Source: Salinisphaera japonica YTM-1
GTDB lineage: Bacteria > Pseudomonadota > Gammaproteobacteria > Nevskiales > Salinisphaeraceae
Direction of reading: 5' to 3'
Length of the DNA stretch: 53,524 nt
NCBI RefSeq assembly: GCF_003788585.1
Contig: NZ_AYKG01000018.1
Coordinates: 1 to 53,524, forward strand
Below the pieces are notes generated by a model. It made no database searches. It was given only the letters and a program-made list of their open reading frames with translations, and had not been told where the DNA came from. Shown one piece after another: positions 38-42,406 of this stretch. Position 1 is the first letter of the stretch; every line of letters starts with the position of its first letter. Position numbers and translations under genes: made by a program.

Positions 38-304
38 GGGCCTGTTGCCGTTTCATGCGAGTCCGCGTTGGCGACCGCAAATCGTGTCCTGCAAGGCGCG
101 AGTCGCAGCGTCGTGGCGTGCCACGATCAAGACTTGCAACGCTGTAGGGTGCGATTTGCGGCCCAACCCTTCGGGACAAGCGCTGTTTTGCGGCAATACA
201 GCGTTCTAGCCCCCTTACGCAGAATGACTGCGCGGCGCGGGCTACGCCTCGTCTTGCCGCAAAACAGCGCTTGGCGCGGACTCGCATGAAACGGCAACAA
301 GCCC
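38..304 (-). repeat. Family A inverted element, copy A1 (MITE-like)
   Basis: This 267 bp non-coding element has 30 bp terminal inverted repeats, 38-67 against 275-304, with 29 of 30 bases paired. Inside are two hairpin arms: 75-84 with 152-161 (CCGCAAATCG), and 177-196 with 254-273 (20 bp, perfect). A connector with TCCCGAAGGG (read on the minus strand) separates them. It is the reverse-complement orientation of copy A2 at 42137-42406. CTAG follows the right end. No transposase is encoded. The ATG of the following permease at 286 lies within the right terminal repeat, so the element has supplied or replaced the start of that gene. The family assignment is seen directly; mobility is inferred. 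Confidence 0.85.
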
Positions 305-1665
305 TAGGCCCGTTTCGACTCTGTCTGCCGTTTGTCCATTATCGCTTCGAGTGGCCGGACTATTGCCAGGGGCTGGCGTTGTGCGCGGTGGATCTGGCGG
401 CGATACCGCTCATGGTTGATCTGCTGGGCATGCCGTTTGCCGCAGCACTTGCCGTGGTGATCATGAACGGCGTGCTGTATCTGACCCATCACCTGCTGGG
501 CGACCCGGTGGTGCCCGGCTGGATCACGCCGGCCATTCCGCTTCTGATCGCCTACTGTGAGGGCTATGACCCCGGCGTGGCTCGCGTGCACGCGTTGATC
601 GCGTTTCAGTTCATGCTGGGGGCGTTGTCGATCGGGCTGGGCGCCACCGGGCTGGCGCGTCATGTGGTGCGCGCCGTGCCCACGGCCTTGAAGGCCGGCA
701 TCGTGATGGGGGCCGGGCTGGCCGCGGTGAACACAGTATTCGCCGACGACGGGCGGTTCTGGACCTATCCGGTGACGATCTCGATCGCGGTGGGGCTGGC
801 CTTTGCGATGATCTTCTCGCGCGGGTTCAACGCGCTCAAGGCCCGAAGCGCCTGGGCGGCGCTTGCCGGCAAGCTGGGTATCTTTCCGATCATCGTGTTG
901 GCGATCGTGGTCGCACCGCTGGCCGGCGAGGCGCCCTGGCCGGATCTGCGCTTTGGCTTCTCCCAGCCGGATTTCGTCACCCTGTGGGCCGGCTACACCG
1001 TGTTTGGCGTGGGCCTGCCGCCGGCCGGCTTCTTCCTGGCCGCGTTGCCCACGGTGATCGCGACGTATCTGGTGGTGTTTGGTGATGTATTGCAGTCGCG
1101 TGCGCTGCTCGACGAGGCCGCGGCCGCCCGGCCCGATCGTCCGATCGACTACTCGCCCGATCGCGCGCACATGATCTTTGGCGCCCGTAACGCCACCATG
1201 AGCGTGGCCGGCCCGGATGTGGCGATGTGTGGCCCGCTCTGGTCAGCCATGCACGTGGTGATCGTCGAGCGCTACAAGGAAGGCCGCAAGGCCATGGGCT
1301 CGATGATCGGCGGCGCCGGCTCGTTTCGGTGGGGCACGAACACCGGGCTGTTGCTGTTGCCGATCGTCTCGCTCATCCAGCCGATTCTGGGCGTGGCCCT
1401 GGCGCTGACGTTGCTCATCCAGGGCTATGTCAGCGTGCGGGTCGGTATCATGGAGGCCCGCAACCCGACCGATCTGGGCATCGCCGGCATCACGGCCGCT
1501 ATTCTGGTGACGCAGGGGGCGGCCTGGGCCATCGGCGTGGGGCTGGTGTTATCAATTCTGATTCACGGCCGGGCGCTGGCACGGCCCATGCCGAACGAGT
1601 TGTTCGACCGACCGGACGACCGGCCCGCCGATAACGAAAACGACCAAGACGACGACAGACGATGA
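286..1665 (+). CDS. NCS2-like multi-pass membrane permease
   Basis: The product is about 459 residues with roughly ten to twelve hydrophobic segments. It begins with an aromatic stretch (FEWPDY) followed by helices rich in Gly, Ala and Pro, typical of solute carriers related to the NCS2 and SulP folds. It may belong to the DUF3360 group, but I cannot confirm that by eye and the substrate is unknown. The tail (DRPDDRPADNENDQDDD) is highly acidic. The 5' end is odd: ATG 286 and the upstream TTG 271 both lie within the terminal repeat of element A1, and no good ribosome binding site is visible. The first eight residues are element-derived. The gene overlaps the next one by 4 bp (ATGA), suggesting translational coupling. 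Confidence 0.6.
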   Translation: MKRQQALGPFRLCLPFVHYRFEWPDYCQGLALCAVDLAAIPLMVDLLGMPFAAALAVVIMNGVLYLTHHLLGDPVVPGWITPAIPLLIAYCEGYDPGVARVHALIAFQFMLGALSIGLGATGLARHVVRAVPTALKAGIVMGAGLAAVNTVFADDGRFWTYPVTISIAVGLAFAMIFSRGFNALKARSAWAALAGKLGIFPIIVLAIVVAPLAGEAPWPDLRFGFSQPDFVTLWAGYTVFGVGLPPAGFFLAALPTVIATYLVVFGDVLQSRALLDEAAAARPDRPIDYSPDRAHMIFGARNATMSVAGPDVAMCGPLWSAMHVVIVERYKEGRKAMGSMIGGAGSFRWGTNTGLLLLPIVSLIQPILGVALALTLLIQGYVSVRVGIMEARNPTDLGIAGITAAILVTQGAAWAIGVGLVLSILIHGRALARPMPNELFDRPDDRPADNENDQDDDRR

Positions 1666-2252
1666 GCAAGCAAACGATGACCGCGCCGGCCCGCTGGGTC
1701 TGTGTCTACTGTGGCTCGCGCGATGGCCAGAATCCGATCTATCGCGAAGCCGCGACAGCGCTGGGCACGGCGTTGGGCCAGGCCGGCTATGGCCTGGTTT
1801 ACGGCGGCGCCCGCGTGGGTTTGATGGGCGCGGTGGCCGATGCCGCGCTGGCAAGCGGCGCCCCGGTGCACGGCATCATCCCGCGCGGATTGTCCGAGCG
1901 CGAGCTGGCCCACGACGGGCTGACCCGCCTGGATGTGGTTGAAACCATGCATCAGCGCAAGCTGGGCATGATCGAGGCCGCCGACGGCTTCATCGCGCTG
2001 CCCGGCGGGTTCGGCACGCTCGAAGAGCTGTTTGAGGTGCTGACCTGGCACCAGATCGGCTGGCACGACAAGCCGGTGGGGCTGTGTGACGTCGATGGTT
2101 TCTATGGCCCGTTGGTGCGCTGCATGCATCACATGCGCGATCAGGGGTTTGTCAGCGCGGCCAATATCGCGCGTATTGGCGTGGCGCATGAGCCACAGGC
2201 GTTGGTGGCCCGGCTGTTCGAGCCGATGGCCGCAAGCACGGATATGTCATAA
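1662..2252 (+). CDS. LOG-family Rossmann protein (TIGR00730 type)
   Basis: A 196-residue cytosolic protein of the lysine-decarboxylase-like LOG family. Characterised members are nucleotide 5'-monophosphate phosphoribohydrolases, which release free base from AMP-type nucleotides and, in plants and some bacteria, make cytokinins. The diagnostic PGGFGTLEE motif is at residues 114-122 and the preceding MHQRK at 96-100. An N-terminal VYCGSRDG and a GGARVGLMG nucleotide-binding stretch complete the pattern. It starts inside the stop of the upstream permease (ATGA overlap). Co-transcription with a permease of the NCS2 type would fit nucleobase metabolism, but that link is inference. Confidence 0.88.
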   Translation: MSKQTMTAPARWVCVYCGSRDGQNPIYREAATALGTALGQAGYGLVYGGARVGLMGAVADAALASGAPVHGIIPRGLSERELAHDGLTRLDVVETMHQRKLGMIEAADGFIALPGGFGTLEELFEVLTWHQIGWHDKPVGLCDVDGFYGPLVRCMHHMRDQGFVSAANIARIGVAHEPQALVARLFEPMAASTDMS

Positions 2253-2335
2253 CAGGCGATATACGACGAAAGTAGCAAAGCGCGATTCGGGATGATTGAT
2301 ACCGTGTCGCGCTCGCAAGTGACCCGAGGCATGGT

Positions 2336-3802
2336 GTGGCTCCTTCTCAAGACAGTATTTCGAACCGCCCCTCTGAGAGCTCGGGGATCAGTGCCCGCTC
2401 GGTGGGTCTGCTGCTCGGCCCGCTCTGGCTGATCGCCACGCTTTTGATCGGCGCGCCCGAAGGCCTGCCCGAAGCCGGCTGGCACTGTGCGGGCCTGGCC
2501 GCGATGATGGCCACCTGGTGGGCCACCGAGGCCATCCCGATTCCGGCCACCGCGCTGTTGCCACTGGCACTGGGGCCGCTGGTCGGCCTGGGGGATTTCC
2601 AGACCCTGGCCCACGGCTATGCCGACGACATCATCTTTCTGTTTCTGGGTGGGTTTCTGCTCGGCCTGGCCATGCAGCGCTGGAATCTGCATCGCCGCAT
2701 CGCCCTGAGCACGCTGCTGGCGGTGGGCTCAGCGCCCAAGCGCCAGATCGGTGGTTTCATGATCGCCACCGGCTTCATCAGCATGTGGGTCTCCAATACC
2801 GCGACCTCGGTGATGATGTTGCCGATCGGCACCTCGGTGATCGCACTGATGGCCGATCGTGAGTCGGCCGGCATCGATCGTTATGCCACCAGCCTGCTGC
2901 TGGGCATTGCCTATGCCGCCTCCATCGGTGGTACGGCCACGCTGATCGGCACGCCGCCCAACGCCCTGCTGGCCGGCTATCTGTCCTCGGATCAGGATAT
3001 TCAGATCGGTTTTGCCCAGTGGATGCTGGTGGGCGTGCCCACGGCGCTGTTGATGATGGTGGCCGCCTGGGCCTGGCTGACCCGCGGCGGCTTCGAGTTC
3101 GCGGCCAGCGATGATAGCCGTCAGATGTTGCGCGACGAGCTGGACAAGCTGGGGGCGATGACCTCGGCAGAAAAACGCGTGGGCATCATGTTCCTGTTGG
3201 CCGCCGTGCTATGGATCTGTCGCCCGCTTTTGACCGATGCCGGGGCCACGTTCGTCTCCGACGCGCTGATCGCGATGATCGTGGGTGTGTCGTTGTTCAT
3301 CATCCCGGCCAGCGACGGCAAGGGCTCACGCCTGATGAACTGGGAGAACGAGGCCAACGTGCCCTGGGGCGTGTTGCTGCTGTTCGGTGGCGGGCTGGCG
3401 CTGGCGGGTGCGATCAAGTCCACCGGACTTGCCGCCTGGATCGCCGATTCGATGGAGATCTTCGCCGTGCTGCCCGTATTGTTGCTCGTGGGGGCTGTCG
3501 CACTCGTGATCATCATGCTCACCGAGGTCTCGTCCAACACGGCCACGGCGGCGGTGTTCATGCCGCTTCTGGGCGCGCTGGCCGTTTCGGTCAACGTGGA
3601 CGTGCTGCTTTTGACCGTGCCGGCCGCGATTGCTGCCAGCTGTGCTTTCATGATGCCGGTGGCCACGCCGCCCAACGCGATCGTGTTCGCCACCGGGCGG
3701 CTCAAGATCCAGTCGATGGTGCGCGCCGGCCTGGCTCTCAACGTGGCCTGTGTGATTCTGGCCACGCTGATCCCGTATGCCGTGATCAGCTTCATCTGGT
3801 AG
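2336..3802 (+). CDS. DASS/SLC13-family anion symporter
   Basis: A 488-residue inner-membrane transporter of the divalent anion:sodium symporter family, which imports dicarboxylates, sulfate or phosphate with sodium. Both signature repeats are visible: SNTATSVMMLP from residue 153 and SSNTATAAVFMP from about 399, each forming half of the substrate and sodium site. APPNA-like loops (TPPNAL and TPPNAIVF) follow. The chosen start is GTG 2336; the first 20 residues are polar and poorly conserved, so a later start is possible. The gap of 83 bp to the previous gene suggests its own promoter. The exact anion cannot be told from sequence by eye. Confidence 0.85.
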   Translation: MAPSQDSISNRPSESSGISARSVGLLLGPLWLIATLLIGAPEGLPEAGWHCAGLAAMMATWWATEAIPIPATALLPLALGPLVGLGDFQTLAHGYADDIIFLFLGGFLLGLAMQRWNLHRRIALSTLLAVGSAPKRQIGGFMIATGFISMWVSNTATSVMMLPIGTSVIALMADRESAGIDRYATSLLLGIAYAASIGGTATLIGTPPNALLAGYLSSDQDIQIGFAQWMLVGVPTALLMMVAAWAWLTRGGFEFAASDDSRQMLRDELDKLGAMTSAEKRVGIMFLLAAVLWICRPLLTDAGATFVSDALIAMIVGVSLFIIPASDGKGSRLMNWENEANVPWGVLLLFGGGLALAGAIKSTGLAAWIADSMEIFAVLPVLLLVGAVALVIIMLTEVSSNTATAAVFMPLLGALAVSVNVDVLLLTVPAAIAASCAFMMPVATPPNAIVFATGRLKIQSMVRAGLALNVACVILATLIPYAVISFIW

Positions 3803-3809
3803 GCAGGCG

Positions 3810-4415
3810 ATGGCCCGCGCAATTGGCCCGCCCGAGCACGTACCCGAATACGATCCCACGGCGTTCATCGCCGTGGACGTGGAGACCGCCAACGCCGATA
3901 CGGGCAGCATCTGCCAGATCGGCTTTGCCCGCTTTGCCGCCGGCGCGCTGATCGACAACTGGTCGTGGCTGGTTCATCCGCAAACGTTCTTTTCCGCGGC
4001 CAATATCGCGGTCCACGGTATTCGCCCGGGCCATGTCAGCCACGCGCCGGACTGGGGCCAGATCCACGACGCGGTGTCGGCGCTTTTGACCGATCAGGTC
4101 GTTGTCTCGCATTCCAGCTTTGATGTCACCGCGCTCGGCCGTGCGGCCGAGGCCGCCGGCCGCGCGCCGATTGCGGCCCACTGGCTGGACTCGGTACGCA
4201 TCGCCCGGCGGGCGTTTCCCGAACTACGCGGGGCCGGCGGCCACGGCCTGGGGCATCTGAAAACCGTGCTGGGCCTGGAGTTTTCACACCACGATGCCGG
4301 TGAGGATGCCCGTGCGGCCGGCTGGGTGGTCGAGGCTGCGGTGGCGGCTACCGGCATCTCGGTGGCGCAGTGGCTCACGGCCGCCCATCGGCCGGTGGCA
4401 GACTTCCGGCGTTGA
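3810..4415 (+). CDS. DEDDh 3'-5' exonuclease (DnaQ-like)
   Basis: A 201-residue single-domain exonuclease of the DnaQ/RNase T superfamily, which removes nucleotides from 3' ends with two metal ions. The catalytic set is visible: Asp23 and Glu25 in AVDVETA (motif I), Asp105 in HSSFDVTAL (motif II), and His161 with Asp166 in HHDAGEDA (motif III, the DEDDh form). It resembles the stand-alone DnaQ-like exonucleases rather than the Pol III epsilon subunit, as no C-terminal polymerase-binding tail is present. It begins 7 bp after the symporter stop and so is probably in one transcript with it. Confidence 0.85.
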   Translation: MARAIGPPEHVPEYDPTAFIAVDVETANADTGSICQIGFARFAAGALIDNWSWLVHPQTFFSAANIAVHGIRPGHVSHAPDWGQIHDAVSALLTDQVVVSHSSFDVTALGRAAEAAGRAPIAAHWLDSVRIARRAFPELRGAGGHGLGHLKTVLGLEFSHHDAGEDARAAGWVVEAAVAATGISVAQWLTAAHRPVADFRR

Positions 4416-4471
4416 GCGAGCGCGGGTTGTGCATGCAACCCGAATCCGGCCTGCGGCGTATAGTTGGTGCT

Positions 4472-5428
4472 ATGTCATGGTCTGCTCGCACATTCGCACG
4501 CAACGTATCGGCCCAGGCGCTGGCCGGTGCCACCGAGCCGGTTTATGCCCGCCTGCGCGGCTGGATCGTGGATACCGTGGCCACGCGCCAGGATTTCGGG
4601 ATCGATTACGATCATCCCGTGGGCGATCAGGGCCTGTTCGGCCCGGAGTCAGTCACCTGGAAGATCCATGCCGATTTTCCGGGCATGATGGCCGGCGGCA
4701 TCGCGGCCCTCATGCTTCAGACGTTGCACCCGCGGGCGTTGGCCGGCGTTTGGGATCACTCGCGATTTCGTTCGGATGCGCTGGGCCGCTTGCGCAACAC
4801 CACGATGTTCGTGGCCGCAACCACCTACGCGCCGACGCATCATGCCGAGCGTATTATCGATATCGTGGATCGCATGCATGCGCGCGTGACAGGCGAAACA
4901 CCCGAGGGCGAGCCCTATGACGCGCGTGACCCGCATCTTTTGACCTGGGTGCACTGCACCGAAATGGCGATGTTCCTGGAAGGCTACAAGCGCTATCGCC
5001 GGGCCGATCTGCCGCGCCATGTCGAGGATGCCTATTTCCGAGAGACCCGCGTGATCGCCGAGAAACTCGGTGCCCGCGACGTGCCCGGTTCCAAGCAGGA
5101 GATGGCCGATTATTTCGTGGCTATCCAGCCCGAGCTGCGCTTCGACCAGCGATCACGGGATACTCTGGCCGTACTCGATACCATGGCCTTGCCGATCCCG
5201 GTGGCCGGCGTATCCCGGCGTATGTTTCTGGGCGCCGGGGCGGCCTTGTTGCCGGAATGGGCACGGCTGCGGATGCATCGCTCGTACCGCCAACGCGTGA
5301 TCGATCGCGGGGCGGCCGAGTCGCTGTCGCGTATCGGCCCGGTAATGCGGGCCGCCATGTCACAAGGTGTGGGCGTACGCTCGGCGGCCCGTTGCGGGGC
5401 CACGCGAGACTGTCTGAACTTTGACTGA
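4472..5428 (+). CDS. MpaB/DUF2236-family oxygenase
   Basis: About 318 residues, matching the oxygenase MpaB family (DUF2236), which includes heme enzymes such as latex-clearing protein. Family hallmarks are the WKIHADF segment, a Gly/Ala-rich helix (MMAGGIAALMLQTLHPRAL) with a conserved His, and the central WVHCTEMAMF with a second conserved His. These histidines are candidate heme ligands; the heme role is family knowledge and not shown here. Two starts are possible: ATG 4433, 17 bp after the exonuclease stop, or ATG 4472. I chose 4472 because the residues between them look unstructured. Neither has a strong Shine-Dalgarno. Substrate unknown. Confidence 0.78.
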   Translation: MSWSARTFARNVSAQALAGATEPVYARLRGWIVDTVATRQDFGIDYDHPVGDQGLFGPESVTWKIHADFPGMMAGGIAALMLQTLHPRALAGVWDHSRFRSDALGRLRNTTMFVAATTYAPTHHAERIIDIVDRMHARVTGETPEGEPYDARDPHLLTWVHCTEMAMFLEGYKRYRRADLPRHVEDAYFRETRVIAEKLGARDVPGSKQEMADYFVAIQPELRFDQRSRDTLAVLDTMALPIPVAGVSRRMFLGAGAALLPEWARLRMHRSYRQRVIDRGAAESLSRIGPVMRAAMSQGVGVRSAARCGATRDCLNFD

Positions 5429-5456
5429 GGCAGTTGATCGGGAATCCGGGGCGCGA

Positions 5457-6470
5457 TCAGCGCAGCGCCGGTCTTGGCGCGATGAACGGCGCCGGATCGA
5501 TCGCGCCGCCCCGGCTGTAGATACCGAAATGCAGATGCGGCGGGCCGCCGGCGGCATTGCCGGTGTTGCCCACGCGACCGATCACGTCGCCGGCCGAAAC
5601 CCGCGCGCCATCGTCGCTCGTGTAAGCCGATAGATGTGCATAGTAATAGCGCGGCCCGGTCAAACTGGACGATAGAAAGATCGTCTTGCCGCCCAACCCG
5701 CCGTTGCGATGTGAAACACGCCCGTCGACGACGGCGACGACCGGTGTGCCGGCCTTGGCAAAGATATCGATGCCTTCATGACGGCGGGCGCCGCCATCGC
5801 GGGCCACGCCGAACCCGCCGCCGATATCGCGCGCGGCGGCACCGGCCACCGGCATGCCCAGCTGGCCGCCGCGCGCGGTGACCAACCGGCCGGCAAAGGC
5901 CTCGAACAGGCGTGGCTGCAATACAAAGCGATAGCGGGCCTTGGCATCGACATCCACGCGATGAATCTCGCCGTCGGCGGCAACCGCGGTGACAAGCGAC
6001 CAGGTATCCGCCGCCGGATCCTGTCGTTCCAGAGTGGCGAACAGGCCGGCGCTGGTTTCGTCGCTTGTCAGTCGCCAGGCCAGCTGCTGGCCGCGTTCAG
6101 CGGCCAGGGTATAAACCGCGGCCCGGATTGTATCGTCGGCGAAGTCGAGATCGGCGCTATGGCGTGCCCCGAGCCCAACCGGTGTGGCGTCGGCCGGGGC
6201 GGCCTGCCAGCGTTGTACGCTCGGGGTATCGCCCAGACCGGCAAGCCGCAGGCGGGCGGCGTATATATCCCGGTCGGACCAGCCCAGCACGTCATGGGCA
6301 AGCCATGACAGTGCCAGGCGCGACGTGTGCTCGGCCTGGGCCCGCCAGACCGGCTTAGCCCACAGCGCGACAAGCATGACGGCGAGCAGCAGCGTTTCAA
6401 GTATGAGTCGGCGGCGTCGGTGGACGGGTGGCGATGGCGTCTGGGGCTCGGGCGGCGTGTGCATGCTCAT
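5457..6470 (-). CDS. Membrane-anchored LytM/M23 metallopeptidase
   Basis: A 337-residue protein with a basic N-terminus and one membrane segment around residues 22-38, placing the rest in the periplasm. Residues 40-200 form a lineage-specific region. The C-terminal third is an M23 peptidase domain with intact zinc and catalytic residues: His231 and Asp235 (HEGID), His279, and His312-x-His314 (PHLHFG). It is therefore a likely active peptidoglycan endopeptidase cutting cross-linked peptides. It is convergent with the MpaB-like gene and separated from the divergent porin by about 250 bp. The true start could be the second Met, two codons later. Confidence 0.82.
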   Translation of the reverse strand: MSMHTPPEPQTPSPPVHRRRRLILETLLLAVMLVALWAKPVWRAQAEHTSRLALSWLAHDVLGWSDRDIYAARLRLAGLGDTPSVQRWQAAPADATPVGLGARHSADLDFADDTIRAAVYTLAAERGQQLAWRLTSDETSAGLFATLERQDPAADTWSLVTAVAADGEIHRVDVDAKARYRFVLQPRLFEAFAGRLVTARGGQLGMPVAGAAARDIGGGFGVARDGGARRHEGIDIFAKAGTPVVAVVDGRVSHRNGGLGGKTIFLSSSLTGPRYYYAHLSAYTSDDGARVSAGDVIGRVGNTGNAAGGPPHLHFGIYSRGGAIDPAPFIAPRPALR

Positions 6471-6628
6471 GAGACCACCGCCCGGGCGTTTGGTTTAACC
6501 GGCGTGCTGCACCGCGCGCGATCCGAGGCGATGATGACAACGACATGACAGACAGCCGCGTAAGCGACAAAAAACATAACCCGCCGCGAGGCTTGGCGCG
6601 TAAGTCGTTGATAAGAGCGTGTTGTCGC

Positions 6629-6668: not shown

Positions 6669-6721
6669 AAAGGCGAATTAGAGTGCGTTCGTGACACAGG
6701 GGAATCACCAGAAGGATAGAT

Positions 6722-8245: not shown

Positions 8246-8273
8246 CCCCGGGTCAAGCGTTGCCGAAAGACAA

Positions 8274-8302: not shown

Positions 8303-8345
8303 GTGTTTGGGAGAATCCGGGCACGAGTGCGCACCCGAAAGCATG

Positions 8346-22833: not shown

Positions 22834-23892
22834 ATGCAACAGGTCCTAATGCGTTCGACCCTGCAGAACCAGTCGTTTGGCGGCCTGGCTTATATCGTGC
22901 TGGCGGCCGTGGTGCTGGCGCTGGGTGACGGCCTGGTCAAGCTGCTTTCGGAGCAGATCAGTGTGTGGCAGCTCGTCGTACTGCGGGGGCTGGTGGCGGT
23001 GCCGTTGCTGGGCGTGTTCATGTGGCGCTTTGCGCGCCACGGTCTGCGCGCCACGCATCGGTTCTGGGTGGGGGTGCGCAGCCTGCTGCTGGTTGCGATG
23101 TGGATTCTGGTCTATCTGGCCCTGGCCGGCCTGGCGTTGCCGACGGTATCGGCCGCGCTTTATACCGCGCCGCTCATCATCACGCTGCTGTGTGCGCTCG
23201 AGCCCGGCCGGCGGCTGGCGCTGGGCGAAATCGGGGCCGTCATTCTCGGCTTCATCGGGGTTTTGGTATTGCTGCGCCCGGGCACCAGCGCGTTTTCACC
23301 GATGCTGTGGTTGCCGCTGGCCGGGGCCGTACTCTATGCGCTGGCCGCGCTGATCACGGCCACGAAATGTCGGGATGAATCGCCGCTCGTGATGTCGATG
23401 GGTGTACAGATCGCGTTTTTGGGCGTCGGCCTGATCGCGCTCGGCGTTTTTGCGGTTGTCGACATGCCGACGAGCTGGCAACAGGCCGCCCCGTTCGTGG
23501 CCCGTGGCTGGCCGGCGTTTGCAGGCATGGATCTGTCGGTGCTCGCCGGCTTGATCGTGGCGCTGGCGGTGATTGCTGTTTTGGCCAGTGCCGCCATGGG
23601 CCGGGCTTATCAGATGGCGCCGGCCCCGCTGGTCGCTGCCGGTGACTACAGCTATCTGGTGTTTTCCACGCTCTGGGGGTTTCTGCTGTTCGGCCATTTG
23701 CCGGATCAGTGGGGTGTGGTCGGTATGGCGTTGATCGCGATGGCCGGGCTGTATGCGACCCGCGGCGGCGGAAACGATCATGGCAACGGCGACCGGGCCT
23801 CGGGCCGACATCGCCTCGGGCAAGACAGCCGATCGCGCCGTGCACGACCGCGGCTTCTGCGTCGTGAGCGGTTGCCCAACGCCCCGGCGTAG
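22834..23892 (+). CDS. DMT-family permease with element-derived stop codon
   Basis: A 352-residue membrane protein with ten helices in two EamA domains (for example FRFARHGLRATHRFWVGVRS region and the last helix VVGMALIAMAGLYA). It is probably an exporter controlled by the divergent LysR gene. The last 35 residues are an Arg-rich polar tail (from GGGNDHG onward) not expected after the tenth helix. The stop codon TAG at 23890-23892 is also the first three bases of inverted element B1. The tail may thus be a read-out into formerly non-coding DNA. ATG 22849 is an alternative start. Confidence 0.8.
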   Translation: MQQVLMRSTLQNQSFGGLAYIVLAAVVLALGDGLVKLLSEQISVWQLVVLRGLVAVPLLGVFMWRFARHGLRATHRFWVGVRSLLLVAMWILVYLALAGLALPTVSAALYTAPLIITLLCALEPGRRLALGEIGAVILGFIGVLVLLRPGTSAFSPMLWLPLAGAVLYALAALITATKCRDESPLVMSMGVQIAFLGVGLIALGVFAVVDMPTSWQQAAPFVARGWPAFAGMDLSVLAGLIVALAVIAVLASAAMGRAYQMAPAPLVAAGDYSYLVFSTLWGFLLFGHLPDQWGVVGMALIAMAGLYATRGGGNDHGNGDRASGRHRLGQDSRSRRARPRLLRRERLPNAPA

Positions 23893-24058
23893 GGCGTGCC
23901 GTCACAAGATAAGCCGGCCCCTTTGGGGTTGCTCGCGCCGGACGCGCCATGACGCGTTACGGACCTTGACCGTGGCGGGCCACGCTCGGCGGCCCGCGCC
24001 TTGCCTGACACGCCCGGCGCGGGCAATGCGACGGCATATCCTATGACGGCACGCCCTA
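23890..24058. repeat. Family B inverted element, copy B1 (MITE-like)
   Basis: A 169 bp element with perfect 15 bp ends TAGGGCGTGCCGTCA and TGACGGCACGCCCTA. Pairing continues inward with 9 of 12 matches. The interior contains a hairpin module at 23965-24009 (CTTGACCGTGGC, then GGCCACG, then CGCGCCTTGCCTG) that closely matches one inside family A. No coding capacity. The reverse complement of this element aligns with the first 130 bp of B2 at 48014. Confidence 0.82.
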
Positions 24059-34438: not shown

Positions 34439-34448
34439 TCGGCCCGGC

Positions 34449-34979: not shown

Positions 34980-34994
34980 CCCCTAGTCCTGGCC

Positions 34995-36644
34995 CTAGCC
35001 CTGGCCCGAGCGCACGTCGCCCCAGCGGCGTGCGTCCTTCCGGGGCGCGTCGGCCGCGGGCGTCTCGGTTTCGTTGTTGCCCTCGTCGGCGGGGCGCAAG
35101 GTATAGAGCCCGCGCAGCAGCGTAAGCGCTTCGTAGAGGCCATAGTCTTTTTCGGCCAGGCTCTGCTCGTCATCAGCCTTGGCCTCGGCCTCGGACTCAG
35201 AATCAGACTTGGATGATGCCGCCGACGGCTTGGCTGGCTTGTTGCCGGGCGAGGTCTCACCGGCGGCTTGGTCGCCTGCCGGATCGGTCGTGTCGTCGTC
35301 GCTGCCTTGTTCGGTGTCCGGGGCCAGGGTGGTGGCTGCCGGCGTCGTCGTGTCGCCGGCGGCGCCGGTATTGGTCAGCGCGCCGGGCAGGTCGGCCTCG
35401 CTGTAGCCAAAGCCGGCCGTGCGGTCGGCGGGCGTGATCTTGACCGAGGCCAGGGCGATATCCGGGGTGATGCCCTCGGCCTGGATCGAACGCCCGCTGG
35501 GGGTGTAGTAGCGTGCGGTGGTGAGTTTCAGCGCCGAGCCGTCGTTCAATGGCAACACGGTCTGCACCGAGCCCTTGCCGAAGGTGTCCCGGCCCATGAC
35601 CACGGCCCGGCGGTCATCCTGCAACGCGCCGGCCACGATCTCGGCGGCCGAGGCGGTGCCTTCGTTGACCAGCACCACAATGGGGGCAGCGCTCAGCGCA
35701 TCACCCGGCGTGGCCTTGAAGACGTGCTCGGCCTCGGCGGCGCGCCCGCGGATGGTCACGATCGTGCCGTCCTCCAGAAACAGATCGGAGACGTCGACCG
35801 CGGCGGTCAGAATGCCGCCGGGGTTGCTGCGCAGATCCAGCACGACACCGCGCAGGGTGTTGTCCGTGTCCTGTTTGAGCTGGTCGAGGGCTTTTTCGAG
35901 ATTGTCGCCGGTGTCCTCGGCGAACTGGGTGATGCGCAGATAGCCGTAGTGATCGCCCAGCACGCGCGAGTTCACGCTGGCGACCTCGATATCGGCCCGT
36001 TCGAGCTCCAGCGTCATCGGTTTGTCCTGGCCATCGCGCAGGATGGTGAGCGAGATCTTGCTGCCGGCATCGCCGCGCATGGCCTTGATGGCCTCGGGCA
36101 TGGTCAGGCCCTTGACCGGCTGACCATCGATTTCGACGATCATGTCGCCCGGCTGGATGCCCGCCTTGGCGGCCGGCGTGTCATCGATCGGCGAGACCAC
36201 CTGCAGATAGCCCGACTCCATCTGGACCTTGAGCCCCAGGCCGCCGAACTGGCCGGAGGTGGCGTCCTTGAGTGCTTCGTATTCCTCGGGGTCGAGATAG
36301 GCCGAGTGTGGGTCCAGGCGCGAGACCATGCCGTGGATGGCGTTGTCCAGCAGGGTTTCGTCATCCACGGGCTCGACGTAGCCGGCCTCGATCTGGTTGA
36401 GCAGCGCGGTGAACTTGCGCAGCGTCTTCAGCGGGAGGGTCGGTGCGCTCGTCTTGTCGGTCTCGTCGGCGGCGGCCGTGTCGTTGGCGGCGTCGTCGGC
36501 CGGCCCGGGCGCCTGCTGGGGTTTTGTATCAGCGGGTGGGTCGGTGGCCGTGTCCTCGGCCGGCTGGGCTTGGGCCACGGCGGGCAGGCCAGACAACAGG
36601 CAGGCGATGAACAGCCCGAGCGATGCGCTTTGGCGGATGGTCAT
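34995..36644 (-). CDS. C-terminal processing protease CtpA (S41)
   Basis: A 549-residue periplasmic protease. Signal peptide to about residue 27 (AVAQAQ), an Asp/Pro-rich linker, then helical MVSRLDPHSAYLDPEEY, a PDZ domain (KAGIQPGDMIVEIDGQPVKGL, at about residues 185-205) and the S41 core. The catalytic Ser lies in NEGTASAAEIVAG and the Lys in DTFGKGSVQTVLP. The last 130 residues are an Asp/Ser-rich disordered tail, longer than usual. It stands directly downstream of envC on the same strand, with 76 bp between them, as in many proteobacteria. Both act on cell-wall remodelling. Confidence 0.92.
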   Translation of the reverse strand: MTIRQSASLGLFIACLLSGLPAVAQAQPAEDTATDPPADTKPQQAPGPADDAANDTAAADETDKTSAPTLPLKTLRKFTALLNQIEAGYVEPVDDETLLDNAIHGMVSRLDPHSAYLDPEEYEALKDATSGQFGGLGLKVQMESGYLQVVSPIDDTPAAKAGIQPGDMIVEIDGQPVKGLTMPEAIKAMRGDAGSKISLTILRDGQDKPMTLELERADIEVASVNSRVLGDHYGYLRITQFAEDTGDNLEKALDQLKQDTDNTLRGVVLDLRSNPGGILTAAVDVSDLFLEDGTIVTIRGRAAEAEHVFKATPGDALSAAPIVVLVNEGTASAAEIVAGALQDDRRAVVMGRDTFGKGSVQTVLPLNDGSALKLTTARYYTPSGRSIQAEGITPDIALASVKITPADRTAGFGYSEADLPGALTNTGAAGDTTTPAATTLAPDTEQGSDDDTTDPAGDQAAGETSPGNKPAKPSAASSKSDSESEAEAKADDEQSLAEKDYGLYEALTLLRGLYTLRPADEGNNETETPAADAPRKDARRWGDVRSGQG

Positions 36645-36720
36645 GTCATTGATCTCGAGTCGGGCCGCACAGGCACAAAATGCCGGTCGGCGATCGTCTT
36701 GAATGCGGTCGAAGATAGCA

Positions 36721-37875
36721 TCAACCGGCCAGCCAGCGCCGCGGGTTGACCGGCGTTTCACCGCGCCGGATTTCAAAATAGATGCCGCTGGTGTCATGGC
36801 CGCCGCTATGGCCGGCGGTGGCGATCGGCTGGCCGGCCTGGACCGCGTCACCGACGTCGACATAGCTGGCCGCCGCATGGCCATAGAGCGAGTAGTAGTG
36901 CGCCCCGTGGTCGACGATCACGATCAGCCCGTAGCCTTTCATGTAGCCGACATAAACCACGCGCCCGCTGGCCACGGCCGAGACCGGGGTGCCCTGACGG
37001 GCCGCGAACCACTGGCCCTGCCAGCGCAGCGGGCCGCCGTTCTTGGTCTGGCCGAAAGCCGCCAGCGTGCGTCCGTCGACGGGGGGATGCATACGCCCCT
37101 TGAGCGAGGCGAAGCTCGCCCCGCGCGGGGTTTCGGGCAGGTCGGCCAGCTGGGTCTGTACCGATTGCAACAGCCGCTCGAGATCCTTGGCCTGATCGCG
37201 CATGTCGGATAACGAGCTGCGTTTCTCTGACAGCGAGCGATCAAGTGCGGCCAGGGTCTGTTTCTGTGCGGCCTGGCTTTCTTTCAGCCGGGCCAGGGTG
37301 GCCGCGCGGGTGCTGCGCTGATCGGCCAGTTCGCTCTGCTCGGCCTCCAGCGATTGTTGGCGCGCGGCCAGACGGGCCAGGATCTGCTTGAGGTCGTTGA
37401 CCTGCTCGCCCTGGGCATCGGCGAAGTAACGATAGTATTCCAGCATCCGGCCCAGCCGCTCGGGCGACTCGCCCGATAACAGCAGCCGCATACGGCTGAT
37501 ACGCCCGGTTTCATAAGCCGCGCGCACCTGGGCCCGAAGCGCGGCCAGCTCGTCGGTCAGGCGCGCGCGTTCGGCATCACGCTGCGCGGTGAGTTTGTCG
37601 ATCCGTGTTTTCTGGGTGGCGATATGCGAATCCAGCGTGTCCAGGCGTTTGCGCGTCGTGCTGATGCGCTGCTGGGCCTGGGCCAGGCTATCGGATAGAT
37701 CGCTGCGCTGGTTCGAATCCGATGCGATCTTGTCGCGCACGGCCTCGATGCGATTGCGCAGGGTCGAGAGCTCTTTTCGGGCCGTGGCCCCCTCGTCGGC
37801 CGCCAGCGCAGGCTGGGCCGTCGCGCAGGCAACCGCCACGAGCAGGCAGGTCGTATAGGTGGCGATCGATCGCAT
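36721..37875 (-). CDS. envC: Murein hydrolase activator EnvC
   Basis: A 384-residue periplasmic protein: signal peptide to about residue 25, two long coiled-coil segments (residues 30-110 and 155-245) and a C-terminal LytM domain. The LytM domain lacks the zinc histidines: the HLHFG position reads GIYFEIR and the first ligand site is replaced. It is thus catalytically inactive, as EnvC should be; it activates amidases AmiA/AmiB at the septum through FtsEX. ATG 37875 fits the signal peptide. Forms a unit with ctpA downstream. Confidence 0.9.
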   Translation of the reverse strand: MRSIATYTTCLLVAVACATAQPALAADEGATARKELSTLRNRIEAVRDKIASDSNQRSDLSDSLAQAQQRISTTRKRLDTLDSHIATQKTRIDKLTAQRDAERARLTDELAALRAQVRAAYETGRISRMRLLLSGESPERLGRMLEYYRYFADAQGEQVNDLKQILARLAARQQSLEAEQSELADQRSTRAATLARLKESQAAQKQTLAALDRSLSEKRSSLSDMRDQAKDLERLLQSVQTQLADLPETPRGASFASLKGRMHPPVDGRTLAAFGQTKNGGPLRWQGQWFAARQGTPVSAVASGRVVYVGYMKGYGLIVIVDHGAHYYSLYGHAAASYVDVGDAVQAGQPIATAGHSGGHDTSGIYFEIRRGETPVNPRRWLAG

Positions 37876-38029
37876 GCCCGCGATTGTATGACAGCTTGCG
37901 TGGGCCGCGGCATGTACAAGGCAGGCGATCGAGTCTCGCGGGTATGCAATAATCGCGCACCGCGTATCGCCCGGCCTTGGGTCGGGGCGATTCTCGGGTC
38001 GTTTCAATTGCCGTGCCGGGCCGTTTTCT

Positions 38030-38455
38030 ATGGATCAGCTGTTCGAATTCATCGCCGCTCACCCGCTGCTCTGGGCAGCCCTGGCGGTGATCGTAATCGT
38101 CTTCATCGCCAACGAGGTCTGGCGCGGGGCCACCGGGCGCGGCCCGATCGCCCCCGACGAGGCGATCCGTCTGATGAACAGCGAAGACGCGGTCGTGGTT
38201 GATACCCGGTCCAAGGCCGACTACAAGAAAAGCCATATCATCAACGCGCGTCACGTGCCGCTGTCGGGCATCGAGTCGCGCGCGGGCGAGATCACGAAAG
38301 ATACAGGCAAGCCGGTCGTGGTCTACGATGCAGCCGGGACCCAGGCGCCCAGTGCCGTGACCAAACTCAAGGCGAAGGGCTATGAGCGGGTCTATGCCCT
38401 GAAGGGCGGGTTCAACGGCTGGCAGGCCGATGGCCGGCCGGTCACGCGCAAGTAA
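38030..38455 (+). CDS. yibN: Membrane-anchored rhodanese-like protein YibN
   Basis: A 141-residue protein with an N-terminal helix (residues 10-28) anchoring a cytosolic rhodanese domain. The domain shows VVDTRSKADYKKSHI and GFNGWQADGRP, but the active-site loop reads VYDAAGTQAPSAV with no cysteine, so sulfur transfer is unlikely. A non-cysteine loop is known in YibN relatives. It lies upstream of secB and gpsA, the same order as in enterobacteria except that grxC is absent between yibN and secB. It probably acts as a binding or scaffold protein in membrane protein traffic; inferred. Confidence 0.85.
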   Translation: MDQLFEFIAAHPLLWAALAVIVIVFIANEVWRGATGRGPIAPDEAIRLMNSEDAVVVDTRSKADYKKSHIINARHVPLSGIESRAGEITKDTGKPVVVYDAAGTQAPSAVTKLKAKGYERVYALKGGFNGWQADGRPVTRK

Positions 38456-38472
38456 TTTTTCAAGGAGCAATC

Positions 38473-38952
38473 ATGGCCGAAGAGGGCAACGCCGAGCAGC
38501 CGCAGAAACAGGTCGGCCTGCAGAAAATCTATGTTCGCGACGCCTCGATCGAGGTGCCGGATGGCCCACGTGTGTTCACCGTGGCCTATAACCCGGAAGT
38601 GAACGTGGATCTGAACACCCAGATCCAGAATCTCTCGGAAGAGACCCATCAGGTCTGTCTGACGGTCACCGTCACCGCCAAGCAGGACGAGCGCACGGCC
38701 TATATCGTGGAAGTCCAGCAGGCCGGCGTGTTCCAGCTCGACGGCTTCGAGGAGGCCGAGCGCGACCAGATCCTGGGCGCTTATTGCCCGTCGGTGCTGT
38801 TTCCCTATATCCGTGAGGCTGTGGGAGACATGGTTCAGCGCGCCGGGTTCCCGCATTTTCTGTTGCAGCCGGTCAACTTCGACCTGCTGTATGCCCAGCA
38901 TCGCGCCAACGAGGGCCAGGGCCCCAGCGATGCGAGTGCGGCCACGCACTGA
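38473..38952 (+). CDS. secB: Protein-export chaperone SecB
   Basis: A 159-residue tetrameric cytosolic chaperone that keeps preproteins unfolded and delivers them to SecA. Diagnostic stretches are QKIYVRDASIEVPD, FTVAYNPEVNVDLNTQ, the AYCPSVLFPYIREAV segment and GFPHFLLQPVNFDLLY. AAGGAG lies eight bases before ATG 38473. 17 bp after yibN and 6 bp before gpsA, so one transcript. Confidence 0.96.
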   Translation: MAEEGNAEQPQKQVGLQKIYVRDASIEVPDGPRVFTVAYNPEVNVDLNTQIQNLSEETHQVCLTVTVTAKQDERTAYIVEVQQAGVFQLDGFEEAERDQILGAYCPSVLFPYIREAVGDMVQRAGFPHFLLQPVNFDLLYAQHRANEGQGPSDASAATH

Positions 38953-38958
38953 TCCACG

Positions 38959-39969
38959 ATGACGGCCCCGCTACAGCGTTTCGCGGTTCTGGGCGCGGGC
39001 TCGTGGGGCACCGCGCTGGCCGTGCAGCTGGCCCGTCGTGGCCACACGGTTGCGCTCTGGGCTCGTGATAGCCAGGCAATCGCCGCCCATGAGGCCGCGC
39101 GCTGCAACACGCGCTATCTGGCCGATACACCCTGGCCGGATACGTTGAGCGGCGAACCGGATCTGGCACGTGCCGTGGCCGGTGCCGACGACGTGCTTGT
39201 GGTCGTGCCCAGCCATGCGCTGGCGGATTGTCTGGCCGCGCTGGCGCCGCACCTGACGCCCGATCAGCGTGTGCTGTGGGCCACAAAAGGCCTGGAGCCC
39301 GACACAGCGCGCCTGCCGCACGAAGTCGCGCGTGCCGTATTGGGCGATACGCGGGCCATGGGCGTGCTGTCCGGGCCCAGTTTCTCGGGCGAGGTCGGGC
39401 ACGGGCTGCCCACGGCGGTGACCATCGCCTCGGAAAACGATGCGTTTGCCAATGACATGGCCGCGGCGTTTCACGACGGCATGTTCCGGGTCTACACCGC
39501 GCGCGATGTGATCGGCGTGGGTGTGGGCGGCGCGGTCAAGAACGTGCTGGCGATCGCGGTGGGCATCTCCGATGGCCTGGGCTACGGGGCCAATGCCCGG
39601 GCGCTTCTGATCACCCGGGGCTTGACCGAGATGATGCGCCTGGGCGCGGCACTGGGCGGGGCGCGTGAAACCTTCACCGGCATGGCCGGTCTGGGGGATC
39701 TGCTTTTGACCTGTACCGACGACCAGTCGCGCAATCGACGCATGGGGCTGGCACTGGCCACCGGGCAGAGCGTGGACGCAGCCGCCCGCGAAATCGGCCA
39801 GGTGGTCGAGGGGGTGCGCGTGGCCCGCGAAGTGCATCGCATGGCTATCGCCCACGGCATCGATATGCCGATCGCCGCCCAGGCCTATGCCGTACTCCAT
39901 GAAGACATGGCCGCCACCACGGCGGTACGCCGTCTGACCGACCGCCCGTATCGCGCCGAGGCCGAATAA
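38959..39969 (+). CDS. gpsA: Glycerol-3-phosphate dehydrogenase [NAD(P)+]
   Basis: A 336-residue enzyme that makes sn-glycerol-3-phosphate from dihydroxyacetone phosphate for phospholipids. The NAD fold begins with VLGAGSWGTALA. LSGPSFSGEV and the catalytic Lys in GGAVKNVLAIAVGISDG are present. Full length. Its 6 bp distance from secB and the conserved order yibN-secB-gpsA support co-transcription. The next gene (40096) is 126 bp away and acts on phospholipid head groups as well. Confidence 0.95.
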   Translation: MTAPLQRFAVLGAGSWGTALAVQLARRGHTVALWARDSQAIAAHEAARCNTRYLADTPWPDTLSGEPDLARAVAGADDVLVVVPSHALADCLAALAPHLTPDQRVLWATKGLEPDTARLPHEVARAVLGDTRAMGVLSGPSFSGEVGHGLPTAVTIASENDAFANDMAAAFHDGMFRVYTARDVIGVGVGGAVKNVLAIAVGISDGLGYGANARALLITRGLTEMMRLGAALGGARETFTGMAGLGDLLLTCTDDQSRNRRMGLALATGQSVDAAAREIGQVVEGVRVAREVHRMAIAHGIDMPIAAQAYAVLHEDMAATTAVRRLTDRPYRAEAE

Positions 39970-40095
39970 GCGGGTGCCACGCATCGTGTAAACTTCCGAG
40001 CCGGTCGTAGACAGCAACGGGTCTGCGAGCGGCCGGTCTGTCTGCCCGGCCCCGGGGATGTTTTCAGGGCCGTTTCAAAGAATACTAAGACGCTT

Positions 40096-40716
40096 ATGGC
40101 GAACTGGGTCACTTTCGGACGTTTTGTCCTGTTGTTCGTGCTGCTGGCGATCATCTATTCGAATGATCCGGCCTGGCAGCTGATCAACGCGCCGCTGACC
40201 GTGTTCATCATCGCGCTCGACGGCGTTGATGGTTGGGTGGCACGGCGCTTTGGCGAGGAAAGCCTGTTTGGTGCCACGTTCGATATCGCCATCGACCGCA
40301 TCGTTGAGACCGTGCTCTGGGTGGTGTTGGCGCATCTGGGCTTTATCGGGGTATGGATTCCGCTGTTGTTCATCATTCGCGGCAATCTGGTGGATGCGAT
40401 TCGGAGCAAGGGCGCGGCCACCGGCACCGCGGCCTTCGACATGATGCAATCGCCCGTGGGGCGTTTTCTGGTGGCCGGGCGTTTCATGCGCGGTTTCTAT
40501 GCCGTGCTCAAGGCCGTGACCTTTGCCTGGATTCTGCTCTGGCAGCCCTTCGACGTGGTCGCACCGGACTTCTGGGCCGCCAACGGCGTCTGGCTGAGCG
40601 CGATCGGCCTGGGGCTTGCCTGGGCCTCGGCGGCGATTTGTGTTGCACGCGGGTTGCCGGTCATCATCGAGTTCTGCGTTAACGCCCGACCGGGTGCCCC
40701 CCGGCCCAAGACTTGA
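40096..40716 (+). CDS. CDP-alcohol phosphatidyltransferase
   Basis: A 206-residue membrane enzyme with about six helices. The catalytic signature is complete: Asp45-Gly46-x2-Ala49-Arg50-x8-Gly59-x3-Asp63-x3-Asp67 (DGWVAR and GATFDIAID). It transfers a phosphatidyl group from CDP-diacylglycerol to an alcohol. The acceptor cannot be read from sequence; glycerol-3-phosphate (PgsA-like) or another alcohol is possible. The upstream 126 bp is likely promoter. Downstream it is followed by a HAD hydrolase after 1 bp, so that enzyme could dephosphorylate its product, as a PGP phosphatase would; inference. Confidence 0.85.
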   Translation: MANWVTFGRFVLLFVLLAIIYSNDPAWQLINAPLTVFIIALDGVDGWVARRFGEESLFGATFDIAIDRIVETVLWVVLAHLGFIGVWIPLLFIIRGNLVDAIRSKGAATGTAAFDMMQSPVGRFLVAGRFMRGFYAVLKAVTFAWILLWQPFDVVAPDFWAANGVWLSAIGLGLAWASAAICVARGLPVIIEFCVNARPGAPRPKT

Positions 40717-40717
40717 C

Positions 40718-41380
40718 ATGCGCCTGATCATTTTCGATATCGACGGTACGCTGGTGAGCGGTGCCTCTTCAGAGGCCCGCTTTGCGCGTTTTCTATGGCA
40801 GCAGGGCGCGCTGGGGCTGCGTCAGCTCGCGGCATTCGCCTGGTTCACGCTGCGCTATCTGCCGCGTTTCGGCCGTCACGTCATGCAGAAGAACAAGGCC
40901 TATCTCTCGGGGCACAGCGAGCGCCATATCGCCGATCTGGCGACACGTTTCGTGGCCGAGGTGTTGCCCGAGGTGCTGTCGCCGGCGGTGGTCGAGCGGC
41001 TGCGGCATCATCAACAGGCCGGTGATCGTGTGGTGTTGCTTTCCGGGACGCCGCAGTTCATCGCCGATGCGCTGGCCGAGGCACTCGAGGTGCGCGAGGC
41101 GATCGGTGCCCGCTGCTGTACCGAAAACGGCGTGTTCACCGCGGCCCCACCGCGACGTCATCCCTACGGCCCGACCAAGATCGATGCCGCCGAGACGCTG
41201 GCCGCCCACGCGAAGCTACCGCTGGACGAAGCCGTGGCCTTCGGGGATTCGATCAACGATGCCTATCTGTTTCGTGTTGTCGGCGAGGCCATCGCGGTTG
41301 AGCCGGATCGTCGGCTGAGCCGTGAGGCCGTTGGCGCGGGCTGGGAAATCATCACGGGCCAGGCCTCGCCCATGGCGTGA
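40718..41380 (+). CDS. HAD-IB family hydrolase (phosphatase)
   Basis: A 220-residue HAD phosphatase with nucleophile Asp7 and acid Asp9 in IIFDIDGTL, motif II in VVLLSGTPQF, and motif IV in AVAFGDSINDAYLF. A helical C1-type cap lies between residues 15 and 90. SerB/PSP-like class. It starts 1 bp after the phosphatidyltransferase and is in the same unit. Its role may be phosphatidylglycerophosphate or another phosphate ester; not determined. Confidence 0.82.
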   Translation: MRLIIFDIDGTLVSGASSEARFARFLWQQGALGLRQLAAFAWFTLRYLPRFGRHVMQKNKAYLSGHSERHIADLATRFVAEVLPEVLSPAVVERLRHHQQAGDRVVLLSGTPQFIADALAEALEVREAIGARCCTENGVFTAAPPRRHPYGPTKIDAAETLAAHAKLPLDEAVAFGDSINDAYLFRVVGEAIAVEPDRRLSREAVGAGWEIITGQASPMA

Positions 41381-41638
41381 GGGGCGCGGCTGTGGCGGGG
41401 CTCTATCTCTTTCTTATCCGCAGATGACACAGATTGCACAGATGTGGGCTCGGCGGCTTAATGGCCGGCGCGGGGATGACAGCCAGCTGAGCCGGACACG
41501 AAGGCTGGGTATTGGCGGCCTGGCCTTCTTTTGCCTCCTGCCGAGCGTTTTGCCGGGCTGGCCATCGGTCGCCATTGATCGGCCCGTCGACCGGCTTGAT
41601 TCAAGGCAACAGGCGTATACGCAAACCGCAAGTAACAC
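41381..41638. other. Gene-free gap holding a family C repeat
   Basis: 258 bp between the convergent HAD hydrolase and trmL. It contains copy C4 at 41411-41450. The rest shows no coding signal and no clear terminator. Confidence 0.55.
41411..41450 (+). repeat. Family C repeat, copy C4
   Basis: TTCTTATCCGCAGATGACAC, continuing AGATTGCACAGATGTGGGCT. The most regular copy of the family; C1 has the same direction and C2 and C3 the opposite. Confidence 0.78.
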
Positions 41639-42103
41639 CTAGTCGATGCCGGCTGCGCCCGTGAATCCCAGCTGGCGCCAGGCCTCGAAGGCGATCACGG
41701 CCACGCTGTTGGACAGGTTCAGGCTGCGGTTGCCCGGCTGCATGGGCAATACGATTCGGGCACCGGCCGTCTCGCGCCGGATCGCTGGCAGGCCGCGTGT
41801 CTCACACCCGAACAGCAGGGCATCGTCGGCGCGATAGACAATATGGTCATAGCGCGTGTCGCCGTGGCGCGTGGCCGCCAGCACGCGCGAATCGCGGTGA
41901 GCCGCGCGCCAGGCATCGAAATTCGCCCATTCGTGCACGCGGGCGAACTCGTGATAATCCAGGCCCGCGCGGCGTAGCCGTCGATCGTCGAGCGCAAAGC
42001 CCAGCGGATGGATCAGATGCAGCTCGGCGCCGATATTGGCCGCCAGGCGGATGATGTTGCCCGTGTTGGGCGGGATCTCGGGTTCGTGCAGCACGATATG
42101 CAT
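41639..42103 (-). CDS. trmL: tRNA (cytidine/uridine-34-2'-O)-methyltransferase TrmL
   Basis: A 154-residue SPOUT-fold methyltransferase that methylates the wobble ribose of tRNA-Leu isoacceptors. The start MHIVLHEPEIPPNTGNIIRL carries the NTGN tRNA-binding motif. The knot region FGCETRGLP, IVLPMQPGNRSLNLSNSVAV is typical. Full length. Element A2 begins 33 bp upstream of its ATG, so its promoter must be in or beyond the element. Confidence 0.94.
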   Translation of the reverse strand: MHIVLHEPEIPPNTGNIIRLAANIGAELHLIHPLGFALDDRRLRRAGLDYHEFARVHEWANFDAWRAAHRDSRVLAATRHGDTRYDHIVYRADDALLFGCETRGLPAIRRETAGARIVLPMQPGNRSLNLSNSVAVIAFEAWRQLGFTGAAGID

Positions 42104-42136
42104 GGCGGGGCGACCGAGGCAGGCAAAGATATAGTC

Positions 42137-42406
42137 TAGGGGCTGTTGCCGTTTCGTACGAGTCCGCGCCAAGCGCTGTTTTGTGGCAAGACGAGGCGTA
42201 GCCCGCGCCGCGCAGTGAATCTGCGCTAGTGGGCTAGAACGCTGTATTGCCACAAAACAGCGCTTGTCCCGAAGGGTTGGGCCCAAAATCTGGCCATGCC
42301 GCTGGCTCACCTTGATCGTGGCACGCCACGATGCGACGGCTCGCGCCTTGCCTGGCCAGATTTTGGGCGCCAACGCGGCGCTCGTACGAAACGGCAACAG
42401 CCCCTA
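42137..42406 (+). repeat. Family A inverted element, copy A2 (MITE-like)
   Basis: A 270 bp element with perfect 26 bp ends (42137-42162 and 42381-42406), starting TAGGGGCTGTTGCCGTTTCG. Arm I is 42170-42189 paired with 42247-42266 (20 bp perfect). The connector TCCCGAAGGGTTGGG follows at 42267-42281. Arm II is 42281-42296 paired with 42353-42368 (16 bp perfect), with an inner hairpin ATCGTGGC/GCCACGAT. It is inverted relative to A1. The right end TA(G) read on the minus strand is the stop codon of the DUF2007 gene. No coding capacity. Confidence 0.9.

Follow-up and report, generated by a model that had tools for sequence, protein, structure and literature searches.

The DNA analysed here, a stretch of 53,524 nucleotides from Salinisphaera japonica YTM-1 (contig NZ_AYKG01000018.1; the window), carries two copies, A1 and A2, of one repeat of about 270 bp (family A), which lie in opposite orientation and are built of a long outer stem, two arms (I and II), and a small CCCGAAGGG hairpin. 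The locus raises the question of what such a branched repeat is, how it moves, and why bases that face each other in its fold change together. The comparisons described below make it quite probable that A1 and A2 are miniature inverted-repeat transposable elements (MITEs) mobilized in trans by IS5-family transposases (DUF4096/DDE_Tnp_1 domains, TA target), with a folded interior that is maintained.

Paired changes in a branched fold

A reading of the sequence alone had proposed a structured repeat family with compensating base changes, a claim that was to fail if the genome held no other copies or if covariation vanished in an alignment. Strong folds were found where it placed them: A1, folded as RNA, gave z = -12.3 and A2, folded as DNA, z = -16.0, and none of 200 shuffled sequences folded equally well in either case. 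Its limits for A2 (42137-42406) include the flanking dinucleotides and are right; those for A1 (38-304) omit them, and the copy with its dinucleotides spans 36-306 (Table 1). The connector TCCCGAAGGG is indeed shared, but A2 lies in opposite orientation to A1, so that it reads on the plus strand in A2 and on the minus strand in A1. The differences at paired sites were borne out: the outer stems carry ATGC/GCAT versus GTAC/GTAC, arm I carries GCGG versus GTGG with a changed partner, and the base of arm II differs between A1 and A2 yet stays paired.

Copies of the element are found throughout the genome and the genus. In the window's genome (3.26 Mb), blastn with A1 gave at least 37 full or near-full matches and three more truncated by the end of a contig, with 40 of the 113 candidates scored, and the pattern of the outer-stem end, allowing up to three mismatches, gave 163 matches versus 4 for a reversed-pattern control; many of the outer-stem ends examined there coincide with contig ends. 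Family A matches occur in all 14 Salinisphaera genomes and in 28 of the 61 genomes searched, and are weaker outside the genus. A core pattern (connector plus two arm motifs) had matches in 29 of 85 genomes from the order, where its control had none, and in at least 116 stretches in a scan of 84,980 species genomes, which is a sample and not a census. Among the matches listed, core relatives occur in Delftia, Acidovorax, Pelomonas, Variovorax, Herbaspirillum, Nitrosomonas, Sulfuricella, Stutzerimonas, Bowmanella, and Pseudoxanthomonas, and thus span Beta- and Gammaproteobacteria. The few labelled Verrucomicrobia, Acidobacteria, or Chitinophaga are metagenome-assembled and perhaps binning errors; one contig labelled "Rhodospirillales" (L261) has the same length as a contig (G047:C45) from a genome of the window's own order. 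Plasmids gave no blastn match to A1 or to a Delftia copy, and viral contigs gave one matching stretch.

Across these diverged copies the four-helix architecture and its spacing are common to the Beta- and Gammaproteobacterial members despite turnover of the stem sequence. A free end-finder delimited 115 of 145 pattern matches, of which 84 measure 263-275 bases, 15 are longer, and 16 are shorter, several of the last visibly cut inside their true ends. A later finder, which presupposes the expected spacing, accepts only lengths of about 253-288 bases, so that the narrow lengths of its set (100 of 102 copies at 263-275 bases) are partly imposed. It left 37 of the 145 matches without ends, 19 of them scoring 0-2 (18 at the edge of the available DNA) and 18 scoring 12-16, some longer-armed copies among these; random anchors attained the end threshold in 8 of 600 cases. 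The connector and the arm motifs GCGTTGC and CGCCTTG keep near-constant mutual distances, as do their distances to the ends in most copies, and in most free-finder copies the successive spacings from end through connector, GCGTTGC, and CGCCTTG to end agree within 1-2 bases. The arms, which differ from each other in sequence, contain conserved bulged motifs (GCAAGGCG/GCAACGCC). In copies from outside Salinisphaera, the first 30 bases agree with one another at a median of 11 positions and pair on average at 27 of 30 with their own 3' end, versus 12 when ends are exchanged; the figure of 27 is biased upward because the outer ends, unlike the arms, were chosen for complementarity.

Covariation was assessed in a wide set of copies aligned between sequence anchors (102 distinct copies, 95 past an anchor filter, 62 after removal of redundancy). 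By a corrected G-test, 77 of 112 consensus pairs score higher than every one of the 34,366 background column pairs, that is, pairs more than two columns away from any structure pair. These include 16 of 19 pairs in the ends shared with insertion sequences (ISs; see below), 10 of the 12 remaining outer-stem pairs, and 51 of 81 in the arms and mini-hairpin, so that beyond the shared ends 61 of 93 covary above background and covariation is strong in both arms; 19 of the 20 top-scoring column pairs in the whole alignment are structure pairs. Because the background pairs have the same phylogeny, relatedness does not explain the signal, which lies far above theirs and sustains the proposed structured family. 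Prediction of the structure from these very alignments biases the result in its favour, and the background comparison serves as the safeguard. A second alignment of 46 copies, obtained by another route, gave 85 pairs, 71 of them with two-sided changes. Copies with alternative arm segments were excluded from the Salinisphaera fold (84 of 121 used).

Not all paired changes bear on the fold. Within the outer 19 bases, changes of the GCC, GAGG, and GATG types follow the ISs, and on their own they are no evidence for a fold because terminal repeats must be recognized by the transposase at both ends. The ATGC/GTAC example falls immediately inward of the 19 shared bases, and no part of either arm overlaps them; the example and the arm changes therefore keep their weight and need a cause other than the IS ends.

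One such cause could be neutral. Template switching and gene conversion can perfect palindromes, and such exchange between arms, raised already by the sequence-only reading, might keep the long palindromes perfect in the absence of selection on the fold. The paired changes do show no strand preference, and arm segments have been interchanged between copies. Such repair could thus be a source of the paired changes, but alone it would not keep the bulges, which are conserved and not corrected, or the spacing of the landmarks, and the sequences of the two arms differ; as a full account it is unlikely.

Arm segments come in interchangeable versions (loci L014, L015, L066-L070, and L074): in one, a long strand forms the pairing; in the other, a short piece, for example GCCCATAAAAATTGAAGATGGGC, is complementary to itself. 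The versions are mixed among copies and sometimes apparently leave the base of an arm unpaired. In genome G008, a stretch of about 60 bases (L331, from 1142) is an outer-stem-only remnant that lacks both arms.

Selection could act on the fold as RNA or as DNA. Read-through transcripts might fold into the branched structure and serve as a terminator, processing site, or small RNA, and the very stable RNA fold of A1 would suit this role, as would the position of 14 of the 39 copies with readable gene directions between convergent genes, against 3 between divergent ones (76 of 115 sites are unreadable). Under selection on one RNA strand, G:T should outnumber A:C on that strand. Over all pairs of the 84 Salinisphaera copies, read on the CCCGAAGGG strand, it did, with 394 G:T versus 159 A:C cells, but this excess stems from positions where Watson-Crick pairing is poorly conserved. 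Once a minimum of 75% Watson-Crick is required of a pair, G:T occurs in 22 columns versus 35 for A:C in Salinisphaera (p 0.11; singletons 18/20) and in 24 versus 24 in the wide set (singletons 27/21; unfiltered cells 258/295), and the filtered Salinisphaera arm II even leans to A:C (15 versus 52 cells). Strand-specific RNA selection, apparent at first, was thus unsupported once poorly paired columns were dropped. Copies also lie on both strands, and Rfam gave no match at gathering score in the window or five other loci. With no strand robustly preferred, folded DNA is favoured over RNA, and a role in RNA appears somewhat less likely again than neutral repair. Of the earlier suggestion of selection on single-stranded DNA or RNA, the RNA half is thus not supported by this test, and the DNA half is favoured.

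Mobility and partner insertion sequences

As judged from its sequence, family A is a non-autonomous transposon, a MITE. A TA duplication is shown by one pair of filled and empty sites: a copy in genome G008 (L118) has an empty paralogous counterpart in the same genome (L120; 98.6% identical over 501 bases) with no net gap and a single TA. More distant empty counterparts (L131 in G006, 80%; L193 in G013, 71%) show small gaps at the joint, and the TA is not kept. TA stands at both ends in 76 of 121 copies, most often with C before and G after; since a base other than C precedes the left-hand TA in 26 of 97 copies, the target duplication is TA and not CTAG. Three copies in genome G009 are 99.6-100% identical with unrelated flanks, which indicates recent movement. 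The element thus shares its ends with autonomous ISs, duplicates its target site, and is multicopy and dispersed; an interior derived from the IS by deletion, typical of MITEs and not obligatory, was not found, as only the ends match.

The autonomous partner with the same ends for which the sequence-only reading had asked was found within the genus, in the form of IS5-family elements of 859-864 bp with DUF4096 transposases that carry the outer 19 bases of family A (TA included). Two of these (L401 and L403) have the ends TAGGGCGTGTTGCCGTTTC, with one base changed at one L403 end, a type present in G007 and G003; L408 and L412 have the ends TAGGGCGTGTTGAGGTTTC, the type of G006, where two copies were delimited. 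The IS of G001 has GAGG at one end and GATG at the other, and elements of that genome include the same mixture; L406 also matches element ends. L401, L406, and L408 have open transposase frames (269-271 amino acids); those of L403 and L412 are interrupted. Two of the Salinisphaera proteins were scanned, those of L401 and L408, and both contain the Pfam domains DUF4096 and DDE_Tnp_1 and match the NCBIfam IS5 family transposase model NF033580 (E 1.8e-79 and 1.2e-76); by this match the partners are assigned to the IS5 family, with the IS427 group as a candidate. A Pelomonas IS (L321; 827 bp, running to the contig end) has TAGGGCCTGTTAACACTA at both ends, which is the end type of several Beta- and Gammaproteobacterial elements. 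The elements of G006 and G001 fit the IS of their own genome best, with mean mismatches of 1.71 and 1.50 of 19 versus 2.29 and 2.94 for the next genome. The element interior was not found in the six ISs compared, which gave only three 14-base matches to one copy (E 0.37).

RUP elements are moved by an IS630-type transposase and repetitive extragenic palindromes (REPs) by RAYT proteins. That either moves family A is highly improbable. An IS630-type partner would suit the TA target, and IS630 copies of the genus insert at CTAG; a core copy in a metagenome-assembled genome labelled Verrucomicrobia (L310, 5825-6103) has IS630-like ends, TAGTGTCCTGTCTC, which differ from the IS630 ends TAGTGTCCTGT at 5-6 of 22 bases, and in L357 an element-type end adjoins an IS630 fragment. 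IS630 matches are nevertheless confined to 5 of the 14 Salinisphaera genomes and, among other genomes that bear the element, to 8 of 28, and the IS630 ends delimited in Salinisphaera (TAGTGTCCTGT, TACTAAYCCG) differ from the element ends there; for its patchy presence and differing ends this partner was rejected in Salinisphaera, with L310 and L357 as exceptions. Y1_Tnp genes occur in all 14 genomes, which would suit a RAYT-type mechanism, yet no element lies in any of the 30 Y1_Tnp loci examined (of 37 matches), and this candidate was rejected for lack of such adjacency.

Other observations concern IS630 copies and unpaired ends. In the window's genome, an IS630-family element with the ends TAGTGTCCTGT (L102, 58-1204; G000:C9) is inserted at a CTAG bordering a family A copy. 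L310 is a possible case of a core joined to another IS family. Among 20 stretches with unpaired ends in the complete genome G008 (at least 119 ends, control 1), five held IS630 copies, and the six inspected were remnants and variants, with no new IS.

Several points weigh against mobilization by IS5-family transposases and a maintained fold. DUF4096 transposases were detected in 8 of 14 Salinisphaera genomes; none was found in the other 6, which include the window's own, the complete G008, and G009 with its recent copies. In these the partner is lost or of another type, and because none was detected in the window's genome, active movement there is at most putative. The elements of G003 (two ends only) do not match that genome's own IS best, those of G012 mismatch the single IS delimited there, a family B type (see below), and the IS630-like ends of L310 do not fit the scheme. 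Mobility is read from sequence comparisons. Arm segments look non-complementary in some copies, so that pairing is not essential for the persistence of every copy. Finally, that the interior is maintained for its folded shape is inferred, and both the function of the fold and folding in the cell are predicted.

A core with changing ends

Under the preferred reading, the transposase would recognize the outer stem as paired terminal repeats and move the element. The arms may let the element fold, either as one strand of DNA or as a cruciform in supercoiled duplex, such that the two ends come to lie side by side as ready-made double-stranded termini; the arms would be retained for this end-pairing fold, with the bulged motifs as possible docking sites. 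After a change of IS in its host lineage, the element would keep its core and gain matching ends.

A one-armed relative in the window, family B, bears on this last step. It combines an outer stem and a CCCAAAGGGG hairpin with a single arm, which contains the motif CGCGCCTTGCC also present in family A; a degenerate copy lies near 48009-48146. A genome search with family B gave 29 matches (itself and partial ones included) ranked above the first family A cross-hit, and these cross-hits, in which 45-62 bases of the arm match at 79-88%, are direct evidence that the two families are related. The family B ends differ from the closer end of an IS in G006 (L404) at 2 (left) and 4 (right) of 19 positions, against 7-9 of 19 for the family A partners. 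L404 is an IS5-family element different from those partners, and the window's genome has no detected DUF4096 gene. This attachment of related cores to the ends of two different ISs is the strongest indication of separate evolution of core and ends. It is conceivable, and we propose it tentatively as about an even matter, that the core (arms, CCCGAAGGG mini-hairpin, and bulges) is an independent selfish folded-DNA module that switches transposases by changing its terminal repeats.

Table 1. Positions of family A and family B features in the window.
Feature	Position	Strand	Remark
A1, both flanking dinucleotides included (left TA mutated to AA, 36-37; right TA, 305-306)	36-306	-	Orientation opposite to A2
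A1 outer stem, one strand (38-54, IS-shared end, TA excluded)	38-67	-	
A1 arm II, limits approximate	68-166	-	Predicted fold
A1 mini-hairpin connector, CCCTTCGGG on plus, CCCGAAGGG on minus strand	167-175	-	
A1 arm I, limits approximate	176-274	-	Predicted fold
A1 outer stem, opposite strand, bearing other IS-shared end	275-304	-	
Family B, 169 bp	23890-24058	-	
A2, both TA duplications included (42137-42138, 42405-42406)	42137-42406	+	
A2 outer stem, 5' strand	42139-42168	+	Predicted fold
A2 arm I, limits approximate	42170-42266	+	Predicted fold
A2 mini-hairpin connector, CCCGAAGGG	42268-42276	+	
A2 arm II, limits approximate	42277-42373	+	Predicted fold
A2 outer stem, 3' strand	42375-42404	+	Predicted fold

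A2 sits between two minus-strand genes, one for a SpoU-type methylase and one for a DUF2007 protein, and the stop codon of the DUF2007 open frame starts at 42404-42406, inside the right end of A2. In four genomes (G000, G006, G008, and G013) family A elements are preceded by GGCAAGACACAAGGG, itself preceded by a palindrome of the CTGGTAGCTAATCAG type, whose variant in the window (1-35) is CCCCGGATACTAGCTAGATATCCGGGG; the stretch, found also at L120, L140, L141, L153, and L348, looks as if a second small element travelled alongside family A. The window's contig end carries a 56-base direct repeat (53290-53345 and 53469-53524; 98% identical, 179 bases apart), which could stem from the assembly or from duplication of a gene end.

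Relation to known elements and significance

Among autonomous relatives, TA duplication on insertion is reported for ISPsp10 (IS5 family, IS427 group) in the sections of PMC4133298 that treat it; family A shares the TA duplication, and its Pelomonas partner L321 likewise has two overlapping frames. Unlike such IS5-family and IS427 ISs, family A has no transposase gene, and none of the six ISs compared holds its interior. Correia/NEMIS, RUP, and ERIC, as characterized in the pertinent parts of PMC2229807, are elements of about 100-200 bp with long stem-loops, whose hosts are single genera or related groups. Family A resembles them in being non-autonomous, short, and foldable, with terminal inverted repeats and TA ends, and departs from that description in its 270 bp, its outer stem with two arms and mini-hairpin, its spread over two classes, and its sequence turnover. 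The ends of MITEPye1 of Paracoccus yeei (IS1182 family, 1-3 chromosomal copies), according to the portion of PMC11578231 devoted to it, likewise match ISs of the same hosts, and RNA folding is predicted for it; unlike MITEPye1 as portrayed there, family A has a conserved core with changing ends. With REPINs and RAYTs, as outlined in part of PMC3116915, it has in common that it is palindromic, miniature, mobile chromosomal DNA; it differs in its lack of Y1 adjacency, its TA duplication, and its IS5 ends. Literature searches, sequence words included, found no publication that describes an element of this kind, within a reach that excluded ISfinder and most subscription journals.

MITEs are usually viewed as decayed ISs confined to one host group. 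In family A, a demanding branched architecture has been kept across two bacterial classes while stems and ends change. Its ends correspond to those of ISs found in the same genus. It becomes testable whether the internal DNA structure of a non-autonomous element aids the transposase, and likewise how such elements change transposases, with natural IS/element pairs at hand. If the core is indeed an independent module, family A would represent a class of structural satellite transposons across Beta- and Gammaproteobacteria, with two-armed (A) and one-armed (B) forms in one genome bearing the ends of different ISs.

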